From the NCBI GenBank assembly GCA_026419785.1, contig JAODTK010005526.1, forward strand, positions 1 through 64,000: a stretch of 64,000 bases of DNA, in the 5' to 3' direction. The notes below the pieces were generated by a model. The model ran no database searches. It had not been told where the DNA came from and saw nothing but the letters and a program-made list of their open reading frames with translations. This DNA is from Sclerodactyla briareus (lineage: Eukaryota > Echinodermata > Holothuroidea > Dendrochirotida > Sclerodactylidae). Positions 6,100-59,720 of the stretch are shown piece by piece (position 1 is the stretch's first letter; each line of letters opens with the position of its first letter). A program made the position numbers and the translations under genes.

Positions 6100-7067
6100 A
6101 AGCTTTCGCCCTGGCACTCATCATTTTCCCCTCAAGTTCGCTTTGCATCCTGGAATGCCCGGTCCTTCGTTGCCAAAACAATCCACTTCCTGCTGCGACT
6201 TTGTTATTTATTGCCCCCCAACTAGATGTTGGGCCATCACTGAAACTTGGCTCTCTGGCGGTAGCAGAGATGATCAGTCATTTGCCTACTATAAATTGCT
6301 TCCTTCTCACGTCGGGTTGGTAGATCGGGGTATAGCCATTTTGCTTCGTGATGGTCTCCATATTAACGTCAACGACATATGTATTTCAATCTTTTTTGAA
6401 TTATGGACCTAACCATCTCTTCTTCTGTCACGTCTTTTCGGCCTTGTTGTGCTATCAGACCCCCACCTAGCGAAAAGAACAACTTACTTCCTCACTGTCC
6501 CCTTTGATGAATTCTCTTCCCTCCTGGAAATTTGTGACTGTCGGCTCTAACACAGCGGTTACTGACCGGTGATTTCAATTCCCATGTTGATTGTTGTGCA
6601 ATGACCGTGATGCCGGGACGTTTCCTCACTTATTGGACACTTACAATCTGTTCAGCAACTATTCCGTGACCCCACGCATCCTTGTAATCACATGCTGGAC
6701 CTCCTCATTCCCAGGCAGAGGATGACGACCTGTAGTTGTCCTAGTGTACAGCATGGCTTACCATGAGACCACTAATGCAATCAAGTGTCGTCCTAACATC
6801 TTAACATCTGCCCGTTGCCGTCGCGTCCTTTACCGTGCTCGAAGCAAATAACGGCCCGTGCACTACATAATTTCAGCATTGATTTACGCTCACATCCAGA
6901 CTTTCGCTTCGCTCATGCCTCCTGCTATGGACCTAGATCCCTTGGTCCGTGAATATAACAACCTCCCTGACTAGTCATTCGACAGCCATGCACCATTGGT
7001 GCATGGAATTGTCATTCTTCGTCCTCACGTAACCTTGATATTCTGATACTCTCCGTGCTGGCCAAGA
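6100..7067 (+). mobile_element. CR1-like LINE, endonuclease half (left of insertion)
   Basis: Decayed non-LTR retrotransposon. Reading across frames, the translated sequence shows the hallmarks of an APE-type endonuclease: a start resembling LWNARSF near 6150, AITETWLSG near 6236-6260, a GIAILLRDGLHI segment near 6330-6365 and the catalytic-region motif LTGDFNSHVDCC at about 6562-6597. These come in the order expected for CR1/L2-type ORF2. Several frame slips separate them, so no long frame survives. The T-rich stretch 5500-6100 may be its 5' leader but is not diagnostic. The LINE is interrupted at 7067 by a foldback element and resumes at 12564 with the next part of the same protein. Confidence 0.8.
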
Positions 7068-7087
7068 GGGACAGCCCGAGTTCCCTA

Positions 7088-7516
7088 AAACCAAGGTTTT
7101 TTATTCATAATGTCCGTTTTTCATAAGAGGCCTTTTATATTCATAAGGCCTTTTTGTTCATAAGGCCCGTTTATTCATAATGGCCTAAAAGGTTCTTATT
7201 CATTAAGTCCGATATTCAATAATCAATACAAAGGTCCGATATTCATAATAGTGAAACGGGTCCGTTATCATATGTGAAAAAGGTCCGTTATTCATAGGGA
7301 AAAGGGTCCTTTATTCATAATAGAAAAAGGGTCCGTTATCATAATGAGAGAAAAGGTCCTATAGTTCATAATGGGAAAAAGGTCCGATATTCATAATAGG
7401 AAAAAAGTCCGTTGTTCATAATAGTAAAAAAGGGTCGATATTCATAATAGGAAACAAGGTCCGTTATTCAAATAGGACAAAAGTCCGTTATTCATAATAG
7501 GAAAAAAAAAAAAAAA
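7088..7516 (+). repeat. left arm tandem array of the foldback element
   Basis: About sixteen degenerate units of consensus GGTCCGTTATTCATAATAGG followed by an A-run, 22-27 bp each. Units nearest the terminus have an AAGGCC variant; the innermost units are the most uniform. It ends in a poly-A run at 7502-7516. Confidence 0.85.
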
Positions 7517-7544
7517 ACAAACACCGGACGAGGATCTGCCATGG

Positions 7545-8560
7545 CCGAGACCCCCCCCCCTCCTCCTCAACATTTCAAACTACAAGGATAATGATATATT
7601 CAGAGATACGAGGTGGAATTACAGCAGGGGGGGGGGGGGAGGGAGAAGAAGCCTGAAAAAGGAAGGAGCATAGAATGGGAAAACCATATTAATTATAATT
7701 GCATATATTGTATTGTTTTATAGTTACTATATATCGTATTTATATAGTTATATTATGTTATTTATATTATATTATATATATTAATATTATATTAATAGAT
7801 TATAGTATATTATATATAATTATATTATATTATAATTATATTATATTCTATTATATATATTATATTATATTAATTATATTATATTATATTATATTATATT
7901 ATTTAATTATATTATATTCTTTGTCTCGAATGTATATGTTTTTATAATTTATTGTAATCATGTATTACTAACCGTATTCCTATCCGTTTGTGTCGTTGAC
8001 AATTTACCTCTCCATAAGTCGGACAAACTCAAGCGGGATTATCCCCTCCCAACACCACAACCCACACTGAGTGGGTGACTATAAGTCCCAGTACGCCACT
8101 TCCCATATTTTGTCAGTAGAAGCAATTTCCTACTGAGGAAGGACGACGTGGCAGGTAGATCTAGCTAGGGATAGGGGCAGTGGCACATCAAACGCGAGTG
8201 CCTCCTCCGTGAATCGTATCTTTGGCTGCACATGTATGGGAACGAGAGTGAAATGACCCGGGCCGGCTACAGCATGTCTGAATGAAGTTTGGGTACCCTC
8301 TTGGCGTTTTTTCGTCTAAGTGGAGGGAAGCCGTCCTCCATCCCGTTTGAGGTTTGAATGTTGTACTAATAAGTAGCCTACTAGATCTGTGACGACATAC
8401 TCAAGGACAATAGGAAATATGCACTCTATATGACCAACTACATACAAACCATGTACCTCCTCCACTTTGTTTGCATTAAATCGTTTAACCACGTTTAATA
8501 ACTAGACCTGTGCAGGCGGGCAACCGCGACGTGCATTCATTTGCAAGACTTCGCCTTGCG
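7545..8560. other. foldback interior with AT-rich tract
   Basis: Contains a poly-C run at about 7551-7560, a poly-G run at 7627-7639 and, at about 7690-7940, an almost pure A/T tract of TATAT and TTATAT words. The rest is unassigned. The open frame over the AT tract (tyrosine- and isoleucine-rich) is a composition artefact. Confidence 0.6.
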
Positions 8561-9090
8561 GACCCTCGTTTTAGAGAAAGCCATATTATATTCATTTGCC
8601 ACCCGGTGACTTTGAGATGCTTCTAGCTACTGATATTCAACTATAGTCCACATTCTCCAAGTTTAGTTCAAATACGACAAAGCTGATGGGATTCATTTAA
8701 AATGATGGATAGTTTATGCAAATTTCGACCTCCCGTGACCTTGAATGACCTCGTGTCGAAATTCAGGAATAACAACAGTCCACATCCACCAAGTTTTGTT
8801 CAACTCGAAAGTTGAAAAAATGCGAGCGAGGCACATTGAACTCAGGTGACCGTGAAACACCGTAATGTTTTTCGCGACCAACTTTTGACCCCACCTACCA
8901 ATTCGTGGTTTTTTGAAACCGACCAACTCTGTGTTTTTGTGTACAACCTGCAAAATTGAGGGCAGAAGACATTCAGCACATGCCCACTTTCGAACTCACC
9001 CTAGATTTCACTAGGGACGGACCAAATGTGTACCAATTTTCGTGCCAATTGGATAAATTGTTGGAGAGTTATTGCCTACTAACGGCTGGA
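8560..9090 (-). repeat. diverged AACTTGGTGGG-family repeat, inverse orientation
   Basis: Words such as TCCACCAAGTTTTGTTCAA and GACCTCCCGTGACCTTGAATG are the reverse complements of the AACTTGGTGGA and GGTCACxGGAGGTC words of the family seen near 19 and 57 kb. At least two units of about 170 bp can be followed. Non-coding. It lies within the interior of the foldback element. Confidence 0.5.
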
Positions 9091-11339
9091 GTTTTCCGCT
9101 CGGCCGCGCGGCGGCGGTGGGCGGAGACGAAACGGGCGCGGCTACACACCAAACCCATAAATGGACTGCTTCCATTGTAGCTGTGTATCATCACGTGCAT
9201 CACGTTTCATTAATTTGACCTCTGACAGTGGCCTCGTGCGAAAAGCAATATGGGTTATCTGTTTTCATATGGTCCCCAACATGCCCAGTAGAACGATTAA
9301 GGCCGACATCTTTCTGTTGCACGGTTGTTCTTTTGTTTTGAATGTTTAGCGGTTTACAAGGTTGTAAAGACAATCGACTCTGTTCCTCCAGGTATTCCGG
9401 ATCTGACCCACAGAACAATGGATACTCGCTCCACATGGCAACCTGTACCGTGTCGGCGTGCCATTGGGGCGCATCGCGGGTTCATATTTACATTGAAAAT
9501 GTAATTCTCGAAATCGAAAAGCTAATGATCGTCAATTGTCCCTTGAACATCGTTACGGAGTTACGGCCCCCCCCCCCCCTCCACACCACCGGGATGCAGG
9601 GCTAAACCCCACGCGAGACCCCCTCTTGGCCGCCTTGTCCAGTGGTTAGTGTGAGGATTGGCCCCCTAGAATTAGAATATTATTTCGACAGAAGTGAAGA
9701 GCATATTGAAATTTAATTAGGTGCGTGAAGTTGTTTCTCAATCGTTCAATGCATAAGGTCTGTGTTCTTTTTGCAATGTTTTAAAGAGTTATAGCTCGCA
9801 TTCTGGCATGCAAGTTTTGTATCGGATTAGCCCGGCCGCTGGCAAGAGATGTTTTCACACATTTCCCACCACACGATTTATTTGCAAATGCAAGCGTTTT
9901 GAGATGCTAAAATTGCTACAGTATATCGGACTTGAATGAATAATATATAGGCTAATCGCAACTCGCTTGAAATTTTTCATATTCATTTCAGTTGCACAAT
10001 CGATTGTATCCCTCCCCCCGGGCACAAATTCTGAATCCGGTTAGGGAACTCAAAATTTGGAGAAATATAACGAATAATTTCGCAGAAAAGATGATGACGG
10101 AAGTCCCACGATCTTATTGAAAATACAGATTACAATTTCAAATTATATGGATGTAACGAATAGAGAGAAATACTTGCTTCCAAGGCCACAAAAAAAAAAA
10201 AGAATCGGGTTGTTCCCGTTTTGTGCCCAGGAAATGATATTTCTAGTAACTTAGGGTGTATCATAACCAAAAATTTCATGGACGCTATACGCGCGAACAC
10301 CTGTGGTGGCGCTCCGTGCTTAGATAGGTGACGGGAAATGCGATGGGTCAACCTCGCGCGTGCGGTTGTCCCTCAATTTATAAAAATGATGATTAAAAGA
10401 CCTCCAACAAAAGTTGTTCCAGTGTTGCAATAATTTCCGGTGATCTGGGGTATCGAACCCCAATTTTTGTTTCTGACACGCCACGCGCCACCCTGTGGTG
10501 ACGTTTCGCCCCTATTGAAAATTGTCACACACGGGTATGCATGGAATCGAACCTAACGCGAGACAGTTGGCATGCAATTTAGAACATAATGGATGTACAA
10601 ATCACTTAGTTCTAAGGCTATGAGAGGAAATTTGGTCTGATTAGGATTTGTGACCCATTAAATGCAACCGTGAAACTCATCCCCAAACAATTAATGTCAC
10701 CAGACGATAGTCCTACCTGCCTACATTCTAAATATGGTTCTTCTACATCTTTTCCGTTAACGTTTTCGTATTTACAATGCTTTAGCTTTGATCTCTGTTT
10801 GACCTTCGTGGAACCTGAAGGTGATCCGAAACAATAGGGATTACCTACACTACATGGGCAACCTACCTGCCAATTATGATCAATCTTCATCATTTGGTTG
10901 CACCCTTACGGGGTTACAACTTAGAAAGTTGTTTTTTTTCAGACATTGACATCTGATGACCTTCTAGGTATAGTATGGACATCGACTTTCCTAAACAATA
11001 TGGTACTCTTTACTCCAGCCTACATGACACTTATGCATTGGGCCCTCTAATCTTTGAATTTAGAAGTTATCGTGCTGACAGCGTTCCAAATGTTTGGTGT
11101 CCTGCTGACCCGTAGGTGACAATCAGATCCCGAACCCCCAACAATAGGAATAGGATTCTTCCTCCCCTCACCAAACAAGCAACCTAGCCTAATTTGAATT
11201 TCATAGACGTTTGGCGTTTTGGATATGTCCTCACTAGCAGAGTCCATACATACGCACTCACACATATACACGCCTGCGCGCAGTGGCAAGCACCAGACTT
11301 TTCGTCCTTGGTTGGGGGGGGAAGGGGCACAGACATTCT
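9091..11339. other. foldback interior, unassigned
   Basis: GC-rich patch (CGGCCGCGCGGCGGCGG) near 9102-9125, then a poly-C run near 9567-9580. A tRNA-like word at 9627-9660 and two TTCGA-containing words near 10450 and 10540 were considered as SINE remnants but are not convincing. No gene is supported. Confidence 0.4.
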
Positions 11340-11720
11340 CTAGGGAGGCACACGAATACTACTAAGGTAAGCCATATCTCACCAAGTTTCATGGAATCCG
11401 GCAAACTTCACATCGCATAATTAGGCAATTAGACACTTTGATTAACCTCCAGTAACCCTGAATCCATGATGAAAATTTCGGAGCTCAAGGTACACATACG
11501 ACCCCCCAGGGGGGGTTTCATGAAAATCAAGCAACTTCAAGATTTTTCATAAATTATGCCAAATTCTGTACGTTGATTGACCGCCATTGACCCCCGAAAT
11601 CTTTGTTAGAAAGTTTTGGGACGAAGGTATAACATATTCCACAGGTTCATGAATCCGCGACGAAACCGACGGAAACCTTTAATTTTCGCATATTAGTTCG
11701 CTTATTAGGTAATCCCTCCC
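11340..11720 (-). repeat. diverged AACTTGGTGGG-family repeat, inverse orientation
   Basis: CTCACCAAGTTTCATGGAAT, then AACCTCCAGTAACCCTGAATC, then GACCGCCATTGACCCC mark about two reverse-oriented units of the non-coding family. Together with 8560-9090 this shows that the foldback interior carries two separated blocks of the family in the same orientation. Confidence 0.55.
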
Positions 11721-12079
11721 TTATACTCTGCACCTATGTGCCAACCCGATCGAGTGACCATATCACCTACGGTTCACATCCGTAATCTCGATAACGACCT
11801 AAACAATAATCACACAATAGGCTAATTAACCTTACCATTAGTGACGTTTGTGCGCACAACCGTAATCAGATCGTGTTCACCTAACCCTGACCTACAAACG
11901 AAATCTCCTCACAATCGGTCTTATACCGTTTTTTGAGGAATACTGCTAACGAGGATATAGGACACAACAACACAACACACATATTACACACACATCAAGC
12001 ATACATACAACACACCCACACGACGAAGTGATCGGTAAGTCTCTTCCTGAACTTTGTTCAGGGCGAGACCCAAAACAAA

Positions 12080-12545
12080 GTGTGAATACGGACCTTTTCG
12101 CGATTATGAAAACGACCTCTTTTGCCAGGTTTGCTATTATGATAACGGACCCTTTTCGCTATTTGAATAACGGACCTTATTTGGTCTATTATGAATAACG
12201 ACCTCTTTTTTTGCTATTATGAAATATCGCGGACCTATTTTGCAATTATGAATTACGGACCCTTTGTGGCCTTATGATATCGGCACCTTTTTCACTATTA
12301 TAATCATCGGACGCTTTGTCTCTGTTATGTGAATAACGACCCTTTTTGATAATTATGAAAACGGACCTTTTTTTTTTGGTCATTATGAATATCGTACCTT
12401 ATGACAAAGACCCCTTTTTGTATTATAATATCGTACCTTTTTGTGTCCTTATAATAACGACCCTGTGTTTTTTTTTTTTTTTTCGAAATTTGCAACGTTT
12501 ATGAATAACGTCCTTTGAACAAAAGGCCTATGAATAAAGGCCCTT
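12080..12545 (-). repeat. right arm tandem array of the foldback element
   Basis: About sixteen degenerate units of consensus CTATTATGAATAACGGACC preceded by a T-run, the reverse complement of the units at 7088-7516. The outermost units again carry the GGCC variant (AAAGGCCTATGAATAAAGGCC), mirroring the left arm, so unit order is also inverted. A T-run at about 12470-12483 interrupts the array. Confidence 0.85.
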
Positions 12546-12563
12546 AGAACATCGGGCGGTCCC

Positions 12564-14556
12564 AGCCAAGAGAGAACGTCGTCGTCTTGAATGCAAGTGG
12601 CTGCAGTCCAGAATTGCTGTAGATAAGGAAATGTTACAGGTGAAACATTGTATCATTACAGAAGCCTCCTTCTAATTGAAAGCCGACTATCACACTGTCT
12701 TATCTCATCAGTCCGATCAAAATAAGCTTTTTCGTGTCATCATGACCCACGTCTCCCAATGCACAAAGATCGTTGCCTGTTCATTATGAAGCTGATGATT
12801 TGCCGCATCCCTCAATTAATTTTTTTTTGTGCAGTAAGGTCATGAAACTCCGTAGTGGTCTGAATCCTGTTTCTACACCGCTCCGCTCTAAGGCCTGCTA
12901 CTGAGTCTTGTATGACCAGCTTTACTAATGTTTCATGTGGTTTCTGAAGATGAGGTACGCCGCCCTCATCAAGCTCTGCACTATCAAGTCCTGCTCCTTG
13001 GATCCTCTAAACCTGCCACTTTCTCGATCTTTTCTTCATCTTGTTCTTCCTACTATTACTATGATCGTAAACCAACTCCTTGTCTTCCGTGTTTGTCCAT
13101 CTTTCACTGAAGCATGCTGTGTCACTCGATCCGCTGCTGCAAAAACCCGGCTGGATTCTGAGAGCTTCGCCACTACCCCCGATTTCACATCTTCGTCTTG
13201 CCTTTTCTTTGGAATGTTATTGAAGAGTGGCTTCGACAGCTGCAACGTTTAAATAATCTACTTGTTGAAAACCAGCTTCATCCCCTATGCATTCGGCTTA
13301 CCGTCCTTTTCATAACACCGAAAAGCATGCTGGTGTACAGAACGAACATCTTTGTGCGGAGCGGATAGGCGCAACCAAAGACTATCTGGGTTCCTGATCG
13401 AGGTGAGTGTGCATTCGGACACAATAGATCATTCTCAGCTGATCAATCGTTTTGCTGAGAGATACGTGTCCTGGTAAGGCGCGTAGTGGTTTGAAGCTAC
13501 TTGGCGGTCGAACTAGTCGTACTATGATAATACTATGTACGTCCTACCTTACTTGATTGTGATGTCATCAGGAATAGTAATTGGGCCTATTGTGTCATAC
13601 TCTTCAGGTGCTACTACAAGACATTGTTGAGCCCACCGTATCCAGTCGTCGCCTCTTGCACGCCCCTTAGATCGTGCAGCGCTGTGAATCAGATGGGAAG
13701 CATGTATAACCGAAATAAGATCTGTGCCGTTACAATATGATAGTGTGAATGACAAGAAGACGAGTTTGTGTTATTCTCGCCACCAGTAGTTCTTTTTGGC
13801 GTTCCTACCATCAATGACGGCAACTCTGTACTCGAACTGTATCTCAAGGTTAGGAGGAATCCCAATTTGGAAAATCATGGGGACTATGTTTTGAAAATGT
13901 TCTAGCCAGGCCTGCAAACGCTTTGTAAAGATGCTTGCACGGCATGAGAATGGATAGGGAACATTGTCAGTACCTCGATCAGAAAGACCCACACCATGCT
14001 GATACATGACTGTGTTCCTATGTTGTGTGCATATCAACCAAAATGCTCGGCAGGCTTCACTGGCTCACTATAAGGCAGAGAATGATGTTAAAATTCTTCT
14101 ACTCACGTACATAGAGCTGTCAACTGTATGGCTCCTGATTCCATCTCAGAGCTAGTTCAGCGGCACTGTTCCTCTAGAGCTTTAACGGTCAGATTAAGCA
14201 TCAGCTCAAATTCATGGCACGCTCGTCCACGAGTTCTTGGGGGATAGTGCGTTTGCTTCTGAGCCCTCACTATGGATTCATGCTCTTCAAAATCGATCGT
14301 CTGGCCCCGACTGTGGCTACTTTCAAAGCCGTATTAAACGGGACTCTTCAACCAGCAATATGGTCTGATAATCCTTTGTTCTGTCTTTGTGTGTGTTTCT
14401 CCACCTGGTTGGCTTCCTGTGGACTTTGCTGTGTCTTTTCTGTTTCATTCTTATGTTACTATTCGCCTTCCGTCCTGCTTATTAGGGCTGGAAAAGGCGA
14501 CGAGAGGATTTTTGCATAGGGCGCTCTACAAAGCCCAATTCTTATTATTATCTAAC
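12564..14556 (+). mobile_element. CR1-like LINE, reverse transcriptase half (right of insertion)
   Basis: Continuation of the LINE broken at 7067. Translated pieces in order: a basic AKRERRRLECKW linker at 12566-12600; a segment resembling KSCSLDPLPATFLDL near 12985-13035; HAVVTPLLKKPGLDSESFA near 13110-13170, followed by a diverged NYRPIS region; DVxxxxVIGPIV, matching the PQGS-LGP motif, near 13560-13595; KILLLTYIEL near 14080-14120; and a C-terminal APDSISELVQRH ... LAPTVATFKAVL stretch near 14130-14340. The 3' end has a GGGCGCTCTACAAA word and short ATT repeats at about 14520-14556, typical of CR1-type tails. Many frame slips are present; the YADD box is not clearly preserved. Length with the left half is about 3 kb plus leader. 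Confidence 0.8.
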
Positions 14557-27151: not shown

Positions 27152-27334
27152 GTGAGGAATTGAGTGTTGTTATTTGAAATAAAATGTTAGCGCTTGCCAG
27201 GTTACCAAGGGGGGGGGGAAGAAGAAACCCTCCCATGCACCCAAAGTGACCAAAAAGAATAACACAAACAACTGTTTTTTTTTTTAGCTGAAACCCGCTA
27301 TGCTGGTTGAGCTATTGGATCTGCATGCACTCGC

Positions 27335-27431
27335 TTATCTATCTATCTATCTAGGTCTATCTATATATCTATCTATCTATCTATCTATCCATCCATCATC
27401 CATCCATCCATCCACCATCCATCCATCCTGG
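27335..27431. repeat. (ATCT)n and (ATCC)n microsatellite
   Basis: Tetranucleotide tract of ATCT changing to ATCC units, directly after the 5' module of the Helentron/HINE-like element. Copy 2 has an ATCT tract in the same place. Confidence 0.9.
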
Positions 27432-27459
27432 TGTGAACAATTGCCTTCTTGGCCTCCCA

Positions 27460-28730
27460 AAAGTCATTTCTGATGATGGATGTCGACAAACTTAGACAAA
27501 TCATTCATCGACTCTTGGGACATGTTTGACTTGTGAAGGTCAAGGTCAAAGACCAGGGGCAATATAGGCCATTATGTGTTAAAATTTCAAAAATGTAAGC
27601 TCCTCCACAAATTTTAATGCACAGTGCTGATGTTCGGTTCATTATGGAGGTCTAAAGGCCGTACCTTCGGGGTGTTAAGGATTTTTTGGTCGAGGCCCCA
27701 CTGGGCCCAAGAGCCCATTTTATGAAATTTCACCACAATAGTACTTGAAAGCAATTCCTCCCACACGATTATTTGATGTTATTCTAGGTTACATGTAATG
27801 CGTCCTTGGGGAGAGGGCTACCGGGGGTGTTCGGGAATTGTGCGCAGGACCACTTTGGGCCCTATGGCCAATTATATGAAATACCTAAAATCTTGTTCTC
27901 CTGCAAATTTTGTGACACAGTGCTGATGTTCAGTCGTTTTGGTGGTTACCAGCCATCTCTTTATATGTGGGGCCCTGGGGGGCCAATCATGTGGAATTTC
28001 GCAAAAAAAATGCTTCTCCGTTTTTACAAATCTCAGGCCCAGTGCTTGACATCGGTCATAATGTTGGTTTGACAGCTGTACCTTTGGGGTTGCTCAGGAA
28101 TTTTTGGGCTATCAGCCCATTTCATGAAGTTTAACACAGTGGTCTTGAAATGCAATATGTCCCACAAGCTTCAATTGATTTTCTTTTAAAGTTACAGAAA
28201 TGGTCCTTGGGTAGACTGCCCCATCTGGAATTTTGGGTCCAGGGCCCAGGTTTGGGCCCCAGGGCCCAATCATTGAACTTACTGCAAAATCTGTATCTCA
28301 TACAAAAATTCAGTTGCACAGTGCTGATGTTCGGCATAGTGATGGTCTAATAGACAAACTTTTGGGGGGTGTTGAGGATTATTTCTGTCCAAGGTCTGAC
28401 TCGGGCCCTAGGGCCAATTTCATGATATTTCACACAATGGTGTTCAAATTACATCTCATCACCCACACGCTTCAATGGTCTTCTTCAACGTTCATGTAAT
28501 GGTCTGTCAGGTAGAGGGCCATTTGGCTCATCCAGGAATTTGGGCCCAGGCCCAGTTTGGCCCCTAGGGGCCCATCTATGAAATACTGCGACAATATAGT
28601 ATTTCCTAAAATCTCGTTGAGCAGTGCCAAGGTGCGGTCAGAAGGGAATCCGTCTAATAGCCCATACCTTCATGTGCCCAGAGATTTGCATACTGCAGCT
28701 ATAGTGTGGTCAGACTGAGGAATTGAGTTT
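27460..28730 (+). repeat. tandem array of ~150-bp non-coding units
   Basis: Units alternate between two related types: one centred on GTCTAATAGCCGTACCTTCGG then GGTGTTCAGG, the other on GGTCCTTGGGTAGAGGGCC. All share GGGCCCAAGGGCCCAT-like palindromic G/C words and a CACAGTGCTGATGTTCGGTC word. About eight half-units can be followed. GGGCCC-rich text makes many short open frames that do not persist from unit to unit. Confidence 0.8.
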
Positions 28731-49198: not shown

Positions 49199-49269
<71 letters not shown>

Positions 49270-49372
49270 TATATATAATATATATACGAATACAGGAAAT
49301 ATAGCAGTATGACATCGTTAACTGCAATATTCGCTTGTTTCTCCTTTATTCTATATATATATATATATATAT
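49199..49372. repeat. (TA)n microsatellites
   Basis: Imperfect TATATA tract at 49199-49285 and a second, purer tract at 49352-49372. The tyrosine/isoleucine frames over them are artefacts. Confidence 0.95.
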
Positions 49373-56060: not shown

Positions 56061-56315
56061 GGGATGTTGCGGCTCCAGGGTCTCTCATGAGGATTTTGTC
56101 CTTCCGACCATTTGTACACTAAGCTAAAATGAACTAGATCTCAGTGGAAAATTTGTGGTTTGTTAATTTTGTTTTTGTCACGAAAATAAACAATAAACTA
56201 TTCCACTTCAAAATTTGGCCGGTAATTTTGTTCTGTAAAAAGTTGTATTTTGTGACGTTTTATCTTATTGCCTAGCCTGAACAAAGTTACAGGAAGATCT
56301 TTGCGATCCACTCTG

Positions 56316-56390
56316 TCGGTGTGTGTGTGTATCGTGCGTTTGTGTGTGTGTGTATGTGTGTCCCACTTTCTCGTTAGTGGGATTTCTCTG

Positions 56391-56689: not shown

Positions 56690-57545
56690 CATGCGAAATT
56701 CGTCGTCGTATTCTCACGAAACTTGGTGAATATGGTCCTACCTCAGTCCCGATATTCTTAACAAAGATTCTGGAACATAGAGGGTCCCTCAATGTCACTT
56801 ATTTGGTAATTCATGCAAAATCCTGAAGTAACGTGGTTGGATGTTTTCAATGAAACCTGGGGATGCGTGGTTTCCTTTGTTCCAAATACTTTATCACATG
56901 GATTCCGGGTCACTGGAGGTCATTCACGTGTCTAATTGTCATATTTATGCGTAATTTCAAAGTTTCTAGATTTTCATGAAACTTGGTGGGTATGTCTCAC
57001 CCTTACTCTCCAACATTTTTATTCACTGGAGGTTATTCATTGTATCTATTTCCCATCGTTTATTTCCAATTTTCAAGTTTTCGATTCTCAGAGCTTGCTG
57101 GGTATAGTTTTACCATTTTGTCCCCAAAAATGTTTAACATTGTTGACTCGAGTCCCACTGGGGTTTATTCAGTGTGTATGATTTCTTCATTCATGTCAAT
57201 GTTCATGTTTGTTGAATTCCCATGGACACGTATTAATTGTGGTCCACCGTGGGATCCTGAATTTTAGTCAATGGAGTTGAGTATTTTCTCCAATTTGCCC
57301 TAATTCAGGCAATTTTAAGGCGCATTTTTCCACAAACTTATACGCCTTTGTTAGACATGGTTAATATCAGTCCTTATAACTTGAAATTGGTCACTGAGTA
57401 GCAGGCTGTTTCTGTTTAATACTAATACAATACCAAAATCTGAAAGCATCACATGGAATGACTTATAATTTTTGCATGGTTGACGGTATGGAATGAAACC
57501 ACCGATCGCGCAACCAGGCAGGACTGTGGGCATCGCCTCTTGGAA
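56690..57545 (+). repeat. AACTTGGTGGG-family non-coding repeat, best preserved block
   Basis: Clear units: TTCTCACGAAACTTGGTGAAT ATGGTCCTACC, GGGTCCCTCAATGTCACTTAT, TTTTCATGAAACTTGGTGGGT ATG, CACTGGAGGTCATTCACGTGTC, with period of about 155-190 bp and four to five units. It closes with GAAACCACCGATCGCGCAACC, shared with 19.84 kb. It gives the reference wording for the diverged blocks elsewhere. Confidence 0.7.
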
Positions 57546-58124
57546 GAATTTGGAATCAATCAATTCCATAATACACTTGAAAATATCTTTCCAAATGTGG
57601 AAATTGAGTGAAAATGAAAATTGCTCAAACAGGTCATTTTCACCCTAAATGTCACAGTTGAAATTTCATACAACTTGTGACGAAAATGTGTTTTTTGTGA
57701 CCCCCATTTTCGAGTGCCATTGCTGGACCACCCATCACTCATCTCAATATTTTTTTTCCAAGAGAGGGGTGTTCTCAATCTCCTTATACCCCCTCCCTCC
57801 GGAACATGTTCTATAATTAAAGAAAATCGAGATGGATGAACTTGAAAGTGTCAGATGTTTCGAGTTACTCCAATTCGTTGGGTTTTTTTAACAGTGAGGT
57901 GATCACAAAGTTTTCCAAAGTCCCTCCTGCGGAACCTCTGTGCCTCCTCTAGTGCTGCATGAACTGAATATAGCTGGCGACTCCATTGCCTGTCCTTGTT
58001 GGGGCCTGGTCGCCTTGTTCCCCCGTTCAGATAGCGCGTACCAGATTTGTCCTGGGAGGGGGTTGAGGGGTCGGAGCCCAAGGGAAGTGCGCCCTCATGA
58101 ATTGCCTCACCCTCCCCTAATTTT
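57546..58124. other. stretch with no recognised gene
   Basis: Short frames on both strands, no domain. A pair of oppositely oriented frames at 57851-58081 and 57940-58332 has no family signature. Confidence 0.4.
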
Positions 58125-58181
58125 TAGCTCAAACCAGCTAGGCTGGTTGAGCTATTGGAATCTGCATGTCACTCTACTACT

Positions 58182-58262
58182 ATCTATCTATCTACTTTAT
58201 CTATCTATCTATCTATCTATCTACATCGTATCATCTATCTATCTATCTATCTACTCTATCTA
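58182..58262. repeat. (ATCT)n microsatellite
   Basis: Interrupted ATCT tract inside HINE-like copy 2, at the same relative place as the tract in copy 1. Confidence 0.9.
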
Positions 58263-58299
58263 TCTAGCTTCTATTCTATCATCCAGTGTGTTTACAATT

Positions 58300-59720
58300 G
58301 CCTTTTTTGGCCCCCAACCAGTCATTCTGTGATGGATTGTCCGAGACCAAACTTGGACGCAATGTTTATATTACCTCCATGAACATATTTGACTTTGTGA
58401 AGGGTAAGGTCAAGGTCATTAAAGGGGCAGTATCGGCCATTATGTGTAAAATTTCCAAATGTATCTCCTCCTACAAATTTTGATGCCAGTGCTGATGTTC
58501 GGTCATAATGGATGTCTAACAGCCGTACCTTCGGGGTGTTCAGGATTTTGGGTCACAAGGTCCCACTTGGGCCCGAGGCCCATTGTCTGAAATTTCACAC
58601 AATAGTACATGAAATGCAACTTATCCGCAAGATTAAATTGATGTTCTTCAATTTAAATTTAATTGCTTTGGTGGAGGGCCTAGGGGGTGTTCAGAATTTT
58701 GGGCTTGAGGCCCAGTTTGGGCCCTATATATGATGTCCAATATATGAAATACTGCGAAATCTTGTATCTCTACATTTTGCTGCACAGTGCTTGATGTTCA
58801 GTCATAATTTTTGTCTAATAGCCGTACTGTCAGGGTGCCCAGGGATTTAGGTCCAAGGCCCAGTGGTGGCCCCTGTGGCCATCATGTAGAATTATGCAAA
58901 ATGCCTCTCGAATTTCATGCACAGTGTGACATTCGGTCATATTGATGGCATAACAGCCGTACCCTCTGGGGTGTTCAGGATTTTTTTTTATCTGAGGTCC
59001 CACTTGGCCCGTGGCCCATTTTATGAATTTCCACCAAACTGGTAACTTGAATCATCTCCTCTCACAAGATTCAATTGTATCTTCAGTAACAAGGTGTTCC
59101 TTGGGTAGAGGGCCATTGGGGGGTTTAGAGATTTTGGGCGCGAGGCCCAGTTGGGCTAGGGCCCATCATAGAAATACTGAAAATCTTGTATCTCCTACGA
59201 ACTTTGGTGCACAGTGCTCAGTTCAGTTATAATGCGCGGTCAATTGTCTACCTTCATGTGCCAGGAATTTAGGTCCCCGATGCCAGTGGGGCCCGAGGGA
59301 ACACATCCTGTGGAATTACGCAAAGCTTCTCATCTTACAAATTTTGTTGCACAGTACTGGCATCGGTCAAATGATGGTCTGAAAAGCCGTACCTTGGGTG
59401 TCAGGAATTTTGGTCCAAGGTCCTTCTGGGCCAGCCCCCCCCCCCCCCTGGGCCATTTTATTGATTTTCACACAATGGTACTTGAAATGCAGCTCCTTCC
59501 ACAAGCTTCAAGTGATTTTCTTCAAGGTAATATAACGGTCCTTAGGTAGAGTGCCATGGAGGTGGGGGGAAGTTGAGCCCAAGGGCCAATAATGAAATAC
59601 TGCAAAAATCTTGTATATCCTACAAATTCTGTGCACAGTGCGGATGTTCAGTCAATATGAAGGTCTAATAGATGTACCGTCAGGGGGTCCAGGGATTTAG
59701 GACCTATGGCACAGTTTCAC
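58300..59720 (+). repeat. tandem array of ~150-bp non-coding units, copy 2
   Basis: About nine half-units with AGCCGTACCTTCGGGGTGTT, GGGTAGAGGGCC, GGGCCC-rich and CACAGTGCTGATGTTCGGTC words, in the same alternation as at 27.5-28.7 kb. Confidence 0.8.

Follow-up and report, generated by a model that had tools for sequence, protein, structure and literature searches.

The window analysed here is a stretch of 64,000 nucleotides from Sclerodactyla briareus (contig JAODTK010005526.1, positions 1 to 64,000). At 7068-12563 it carries an insertion of 5,496 bp whose arms are minisatellite arrays facing each other. Its termini are GGGACAGCCCGA and GGGACCGCCCGA, and 8 bp of target sequence are duplicated around it. 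Facing inverted arrays, terminal motifs, and an 8-bp duplication had been described here in the original prediction, and the present analysis confirmed them. The parts of the locus, in window coordinates, are the following.

7060..7067, no strand: left copy of the target duplication, GGCCAAGA; in the other register, GCCAAGAG at 7061-7068
7068..7513, plus strand: left arm, beginning with the terminal motif GGGACAGCCCGA (family form GGTGACAGYCCGATGTTCATAAGG), followed by outer units spaced about 17 bp and, further in, by units of 25-26 bp, GGTCCGTTATTCATAATAGGAAAAA
7515..7547, plus strand: junction of about 33 bp, in the window resembling by eye the start of the middle of the short copies (AAACAAACACCGG..GGATCTGCC)
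7548..12105, plus strand: interior of the long subfamily, apparently non-coding
12106..12563, minus strand: right arm, with the same core unit inverted, its own spacers, and the terminal motif TCGGGCGGTCCC, which stops at 12563
12564..12571, no strand: right copy of the target duplication, AGCCAAGA; in the other register, GCCAAGAG at 12565-12572

The two flanking octamers agree at seven of eight positions in the first register, exactly as had been claimed, and at eight of eight when both are moved by one base. Joining the flanks across the insertion gave a single uninterrupted frame (...LAKRERRRLECKWLQSRIAVDKEML...), which we take, from its appearance to the eye, to be part of the open reading frame (ORF) of a long interspersed nuclear element (LINE). 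Its LINE identity was not confirmed by Pfam, since a scan of seven open flank pieces contained no LINE domain and returned a sole match that was unrelated and under the cut-off.

Tandem Repeats Finder divided the left array into a part with a 17-bp period (7098-7186) and a part with a 25-bp period (7207-7507), and placed the right array at 12130-12399 with a period of 25-26 bp. The arms matched each other in inverted orientation by blastn (7277-7504 against 12372-12130, 77.5% over 249 bp, E ~1e-28), and the majority of the 19 inverted pairs found within 6500-13200 join the two arms. The unit of about 25 bp proposed originally requires some amendment: 117 of 196 units across the family measure 26 bp, more than have any other length, and the outer portion of each arm has units spaced 14-18 bp apart. 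A 17-bp core, GGTCCGTTATTCATAAT, is kept in both arms, mostly at a 26-bp pitch, and the commonest spacer letters differ between left and right arms at unit positions 20-21; positions 1-6 of the unit belonged to the search pattern and are not independent evidence of conservation. These long inverted ends of tandem repeats are able to pair, as expected of a foldback element, and one strand of a 1,027-bp copy was predicted to form a single long hairpin from end to end at -284.8 kcal/mol, a value without a shuffle control.

We searched the genome (319 Mb in 3,171 contigs). The 25-bp unit had 577 matches with at most two mismatches and its reversed control had none; the 24-bp family left end, GGTGACAGYCCGATGTTCATAAGG, had 97 matches at the same tolerance, again with a control of 0, and 20 of these have the sequence GGGGACCG, which marks them as right ends. 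The idea that the arms are chance minisatellites was rejected on the strength of these two counts and of the inverted similarity between the arms. As a DNA query, the left end found at least 53 matches, the window included, among the 40 of 287 candidates that were scored. These loci were fetched only about 1.5 kb inward, which biases the sample to short copies; both ends were present at 17 of the 29 other loci, 807-1,335 bp apart.

The flanks of the copies were then compared, with a shift of a few bases permitted for true and mispaired flanks alike. Identity at seven or eight of eight positions was observed in 13 of 18 copies (the 17 loci and the window copy) relative to 3 of 306 mispaired flanks, and in 6 of 8 long copies relative to 1 of 56; pooled, this amounts to 19 of 26 two-ended copies versus 4 of 362 controls. 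A target duplication of fixed length and conserved inverted terminal motifs in dispersed copies, both features of cut-and-paste elements, are thus present in this family. A genome search for the termini had been suggested as a check, and it bore this part of the prediction out: many copies share the same ends, carry 8-bp duplications, and differ in their interiors.

The interiors fall into several types. The short form, of about 1 kb, has a 132-bp middle that is common to all 17 short copies (the query copy included) and was reached from 31 of 56 further ends, these being chosen from the 97 end matches with those already seen excluded. The window copy is a member of a 5.2-kb long subfamily: the part of its interior at 8052-11360 occurs nearly whole at no fewer than nine other places, with 77-80% identity, and in two pieces at three or more additional ones (40 of 1,724 candidates scored). 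Eight long stretches were fetched, comprising seven single two-ended copies of 5,155-5,322 bp and one double copy of 9.9 kb. The junction of about 33 bp opens the best match to the short middle in six of ten long rows, the window row not being among them. A derivation of the short middle by deletion of the long interior was considered and rejected, as the sequence past these first ~33 bp scored 35-45 against the long rows, under the best of 20 shuffles (53).

Individual copies extend this picture. The double copy (L047, G000:C394:19200-29199) has two long interiors head to tail, enclosed by a single outer pair of ends that lie 9.9 kb from each other; its flanks, GCCAAATC and GCCAATC, agree once one gap is allowed. 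A 2.8-kb copy on contig C1992 derives from the long form by internal deletion and is flanked on both sides by AAATAGAC (8 of 8). Among four fetched copies of a GGTTCG type, three lacked a clear right end and only one (L110) was convincing; it is 1.15 kb long and, with one C assigned to the flank, is bordered by CCAGTTAG and CCAGTTAC. A third type of interior, in L105, spans 8.5 kb between both ends; its flanks, next to poly-C, agree by eye at no more than 6 of 8 positions, and it holds an apparent nested copy of the array. Very short copies (L107 and L108) measure about 450 bp. The two (G000:C2278 and C2002) show the same very short insertion with identical flanks, embedded in roughly 2 kb that also match, and could reflect either duplication of a whole segment or insertion into a different repeat.

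Within the long interior, the portion at about 8500-9160 matches many other loci at roughly 69-76% (again with 40 of 1,724 candidates scored), and may be an older dispersed repeat embedded in the long form. Elsewhere in the window, 56276-56361 and 56874-57005 show short inverted similarities of 75-79% to the right part of the interior (11363-11475, 11515-11627, and 11977-12062), perhaps as a fragment of a related repeat.

The relationship between the two arms was evaluated with a tree of 46 end sequences, from 19 two-ended copies and eight lone left ends (FastTree, midpoint root, supports not shown). Every left end fell on one side and every right end on the other. Over the outer 190 bp, the distances were 0.142 between left ends and 0.200 between right ends, and left and right ends were as distant within a copy (0.305) as between copies (0.307). 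Among the 196 units that passed a strict pattern, identical pairs made up 26% of 622 comparisons within one arm and 3.8% of 2,795 with the same arm of another copy, and none of 446 across the opposite arms of one copy. The high identity inside an arm, its absence across arms, and the two clades together indicate that the arrays expand and homogenise within an arm, without exchange between left and right.

These data speak directly to the proposal, made in the original prediction, that one arm had been copied from the other; in each element this could be by conversion or hairpin templating. Its basis was the mirrored order of the unit variants, and by eye the majority outer units of the right arm are indeed identical to those of the left arm once two units are dropped from the latter. 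The separate clades, the equal distances within and between copies, and the lack of identical cross-arm pairs nevertheless contradict arm-to-arm copying for the period since the family spread, and make it extremely improbable as an explanation of individual elements. The mirrored unit order is an inherited feature of the family, and one arm could have been copied from the other just once, ahead of the spread of the family.

We interpret the element as a class II (cut-and-paste) DNA transposon of the foldback type, non-autonomous and served by an enzyme in trans, a reading to which we assign a probability of roughly 0.88. The family inserts as a unit with an 8-bp duplication, and its copies have shared ends and interchangeable interiors. 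Two separately inherited arms define each copy, with the left end GGTGACAG and the right end GGGGACCG (read inwards), each arm being an array of the conserved core. In the proposed mechanism, a transposase supplied in trans would recognise these ends, probably through binding of the repeated cores, excise the element, and insert it with an 8-bp stagger. The interior, in which no gene was recognised, would be carried along as cargo and measures 132 bp in short copies and about 4.3 kb in the form seen in the window. The arrays probably hold repeated putative transposase-binding sites; excerpts of the literature on Galileo offer a model, in which tandem repeats in the ends hold extra sites of this kind (PMC4079207). 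Because no transposase was found with the family ends, we only infer the mobilization in trans.

That absence is one of several points that weigh against this interpretation. The long copies, the one in the window included, are old: ten long rows differ by pairwise distances of 0.19-0.26 in a star-like pattern, and recent movement lacks support. Twelve of the 29 other loci had no complete copy in the fetched stretch (three lacking the left motif and nine the partner end), and 5 of 18 and 2 of 8 copies fell short of 7/8 flank identity; in two of these, L037 and L047, poly-C or a gap adjoins the end. One piece of the window copy weakly matched a transposase zinc finger (PF14690, E 0.019, under the cut-off). 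Built from the ten long rows, the majority sequence has a longest ORF of 160 aa, which narrowly exceeds the 95% point of shuffled sequences (200 block shuffles: mean 122, 95% point 158, maximum 221), and one long copy has an open frame of 204 aa.

The last two points would suit an alternative in which the 5.2-kb copies are dead autonomous elements with a decayed transposase, as would their divergence of about 20% and the open minus-strand frames, 118-204 aa in length, that recur near 1.4-2.2 kb in several long copies. The 160-aa ORF (349-829), however, overlies the array and its edge and is shorter than the longest shuffled frame. The minus-strand frames had no codon-position bias in three of four copies, with mismatch of 0.202, 0.183, and 0.214 at positions 1, 2, and 3 in L044 and similar values in L041 and L045; in the fourth, L043, the values were 0.195, 0.199, and 0.265. 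Their translations were 31-47% alike while the DNA was about 80% alike, and Pfam returned no match for the three longest. Since bias is lacking in three of the four, Pfam matches are lacking and the translations diverge, the long-form interior is read as apparently non-coding, a hidden transposase in the long subfamily was rejected, and the reading of the long copies as dead autonomous elements appears most improbable.

A hidden transposase was rejected for the window copy also, where one reported frame contains 78 stops and ten open pieces gave three weak Pfam matches, all under the cut-off; nine pieces of L105 and one of L106 gave two weak matches, neither over it. No encoded transposase, which would mark an autonomous transposon, was found in the window copy, the long copies, or the L105 pieces, in agreement with the original observation that none was recognised. 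The transposase-bearing relative that the original prediction had looked to for support did not emerge either: profile searches of the genome gave no match to the MULE profile PF10551 (four candidates scored exon by exon), one to the Merlin-type profile PF12762, and one short match to KDZ (Zisupton). Array units were absent from the 9.5 kb around the PF12762 match and the 9.9 kb around the KDZ match, with a best score of 31 around both versus 94 for a perfect match.

These searches also bear on the superfamily to which the element belongs. Merlin (IS1016/IS1595-type DDE transposase) is possible, though unlikely: the family starts with GG and duplicates 8 bp, and excerpts of the Merlin literature describe elements that start with GG, duplicate 8 or 9 bp, and in some cases have imperfect ends and internal tandem repeats (PMC8101967). 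Against it stands the single PF12762 match in 319 Mb, with no array units nearby; the 9.5 kb around this match (L048, G000:C2120:477500-487000) contain a gene in about three direct, diverged copies at 2-kb intervals, and the gene may be domesticated. The P superfamily (Galileo-like) or hAT, both of which can make 8-bp duplications, is a comparably tentative home. Known P and hAT ends usually start with CA or similar, from which the GG start here differs. Galileo is, in the excerpts available of its descriptions, foldback-like with transposase-binding sites in its end repeats and duplications of 7 or 8 bp (PMC4079207, PMC4168063). Visual inspection of the duplications in the 18-copy set did not reveal its target GTANTAC.

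A Mutator-like (MULE) origin, as thought for most foldback elements, is decidedly unlikely in view of the PF10551 search, which gave no match among the four candidates scored. Mutator elements mostly make 9-bp duplications, and those found here are of 8 bp. It is also quite unlikely, though less so, that the arms are two independently evolving arrays of a transposase-binding core with distinct left and right recognition, each with its own spacers, served by a transposase of an undescribed or unprofiled superfamily.

Other repeats in the window include AT-rich simple repeats at 7704-7953, within the interior of the element, and at 49199-49286. Copies of a dispersed repeat of roughly 0.7 kb, with 78% identity, lie at 27281-27935 and 58121-58803 (also 58913-59411), with more partial copies near 59 kb.

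Among known systems, the TU elements of sea urchins resemble the family by description, having long inverted ends of short tandem repeats, 8-bp target duplications, and variable interiors; their unit of about 15 bp sets them apart. Foldback (FB) elements of Drosophila likewise have inverted ends of short tandem repeats around variable middles, with 9-bp duplications and another repeat sequence; the suggestion that the likeness is one of form and not of sequence is plausible, judged by description only. Text searches of the open-licence literature, as distinct from sequence searches, recognised no published description of this family. What it adds is a foldback family that is well sampled and whose 8-bp duplications are clear, together with a clear answer on how foldback arms evolve here, with arrays homogenised within an arm and left and right kept distinct; the conserved core with freer spacers would further predict a specific protein-binding site.

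Three further systems can be compared. Galileo (P superfamily, Drosophila) is similar in being foldback-like and in duplicating 7-8 bp; many of its copies are defective, and in some the ends contain tandem repeats, but its repeats are about 140 bp long and come from one D. willistoni copy (PMC4168063), and it has a THAP transposase and the target motif GTANTAC. Tetris and DAIBAM, from the Drosophila virilis group, are also non-autonomous and lack a conserved ORF; their long inverted ends contain tandem repeats, their duplications are of 8-10 bp, a shorter relative shares the ends, and an autonomous partner was not found. In contrast, their unit is about 220 bp and only three complete copies are described (PMC4079207). 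Merlin shares the GG ends, the 8-9 bp duplications, and, in some families, the internal tandem repeats (PMC8101967), yet it is defined by its transposase, and none was found between the ends of the present family. We regard the element in the window as belonging to a new family of a known kind, the foldback elements.

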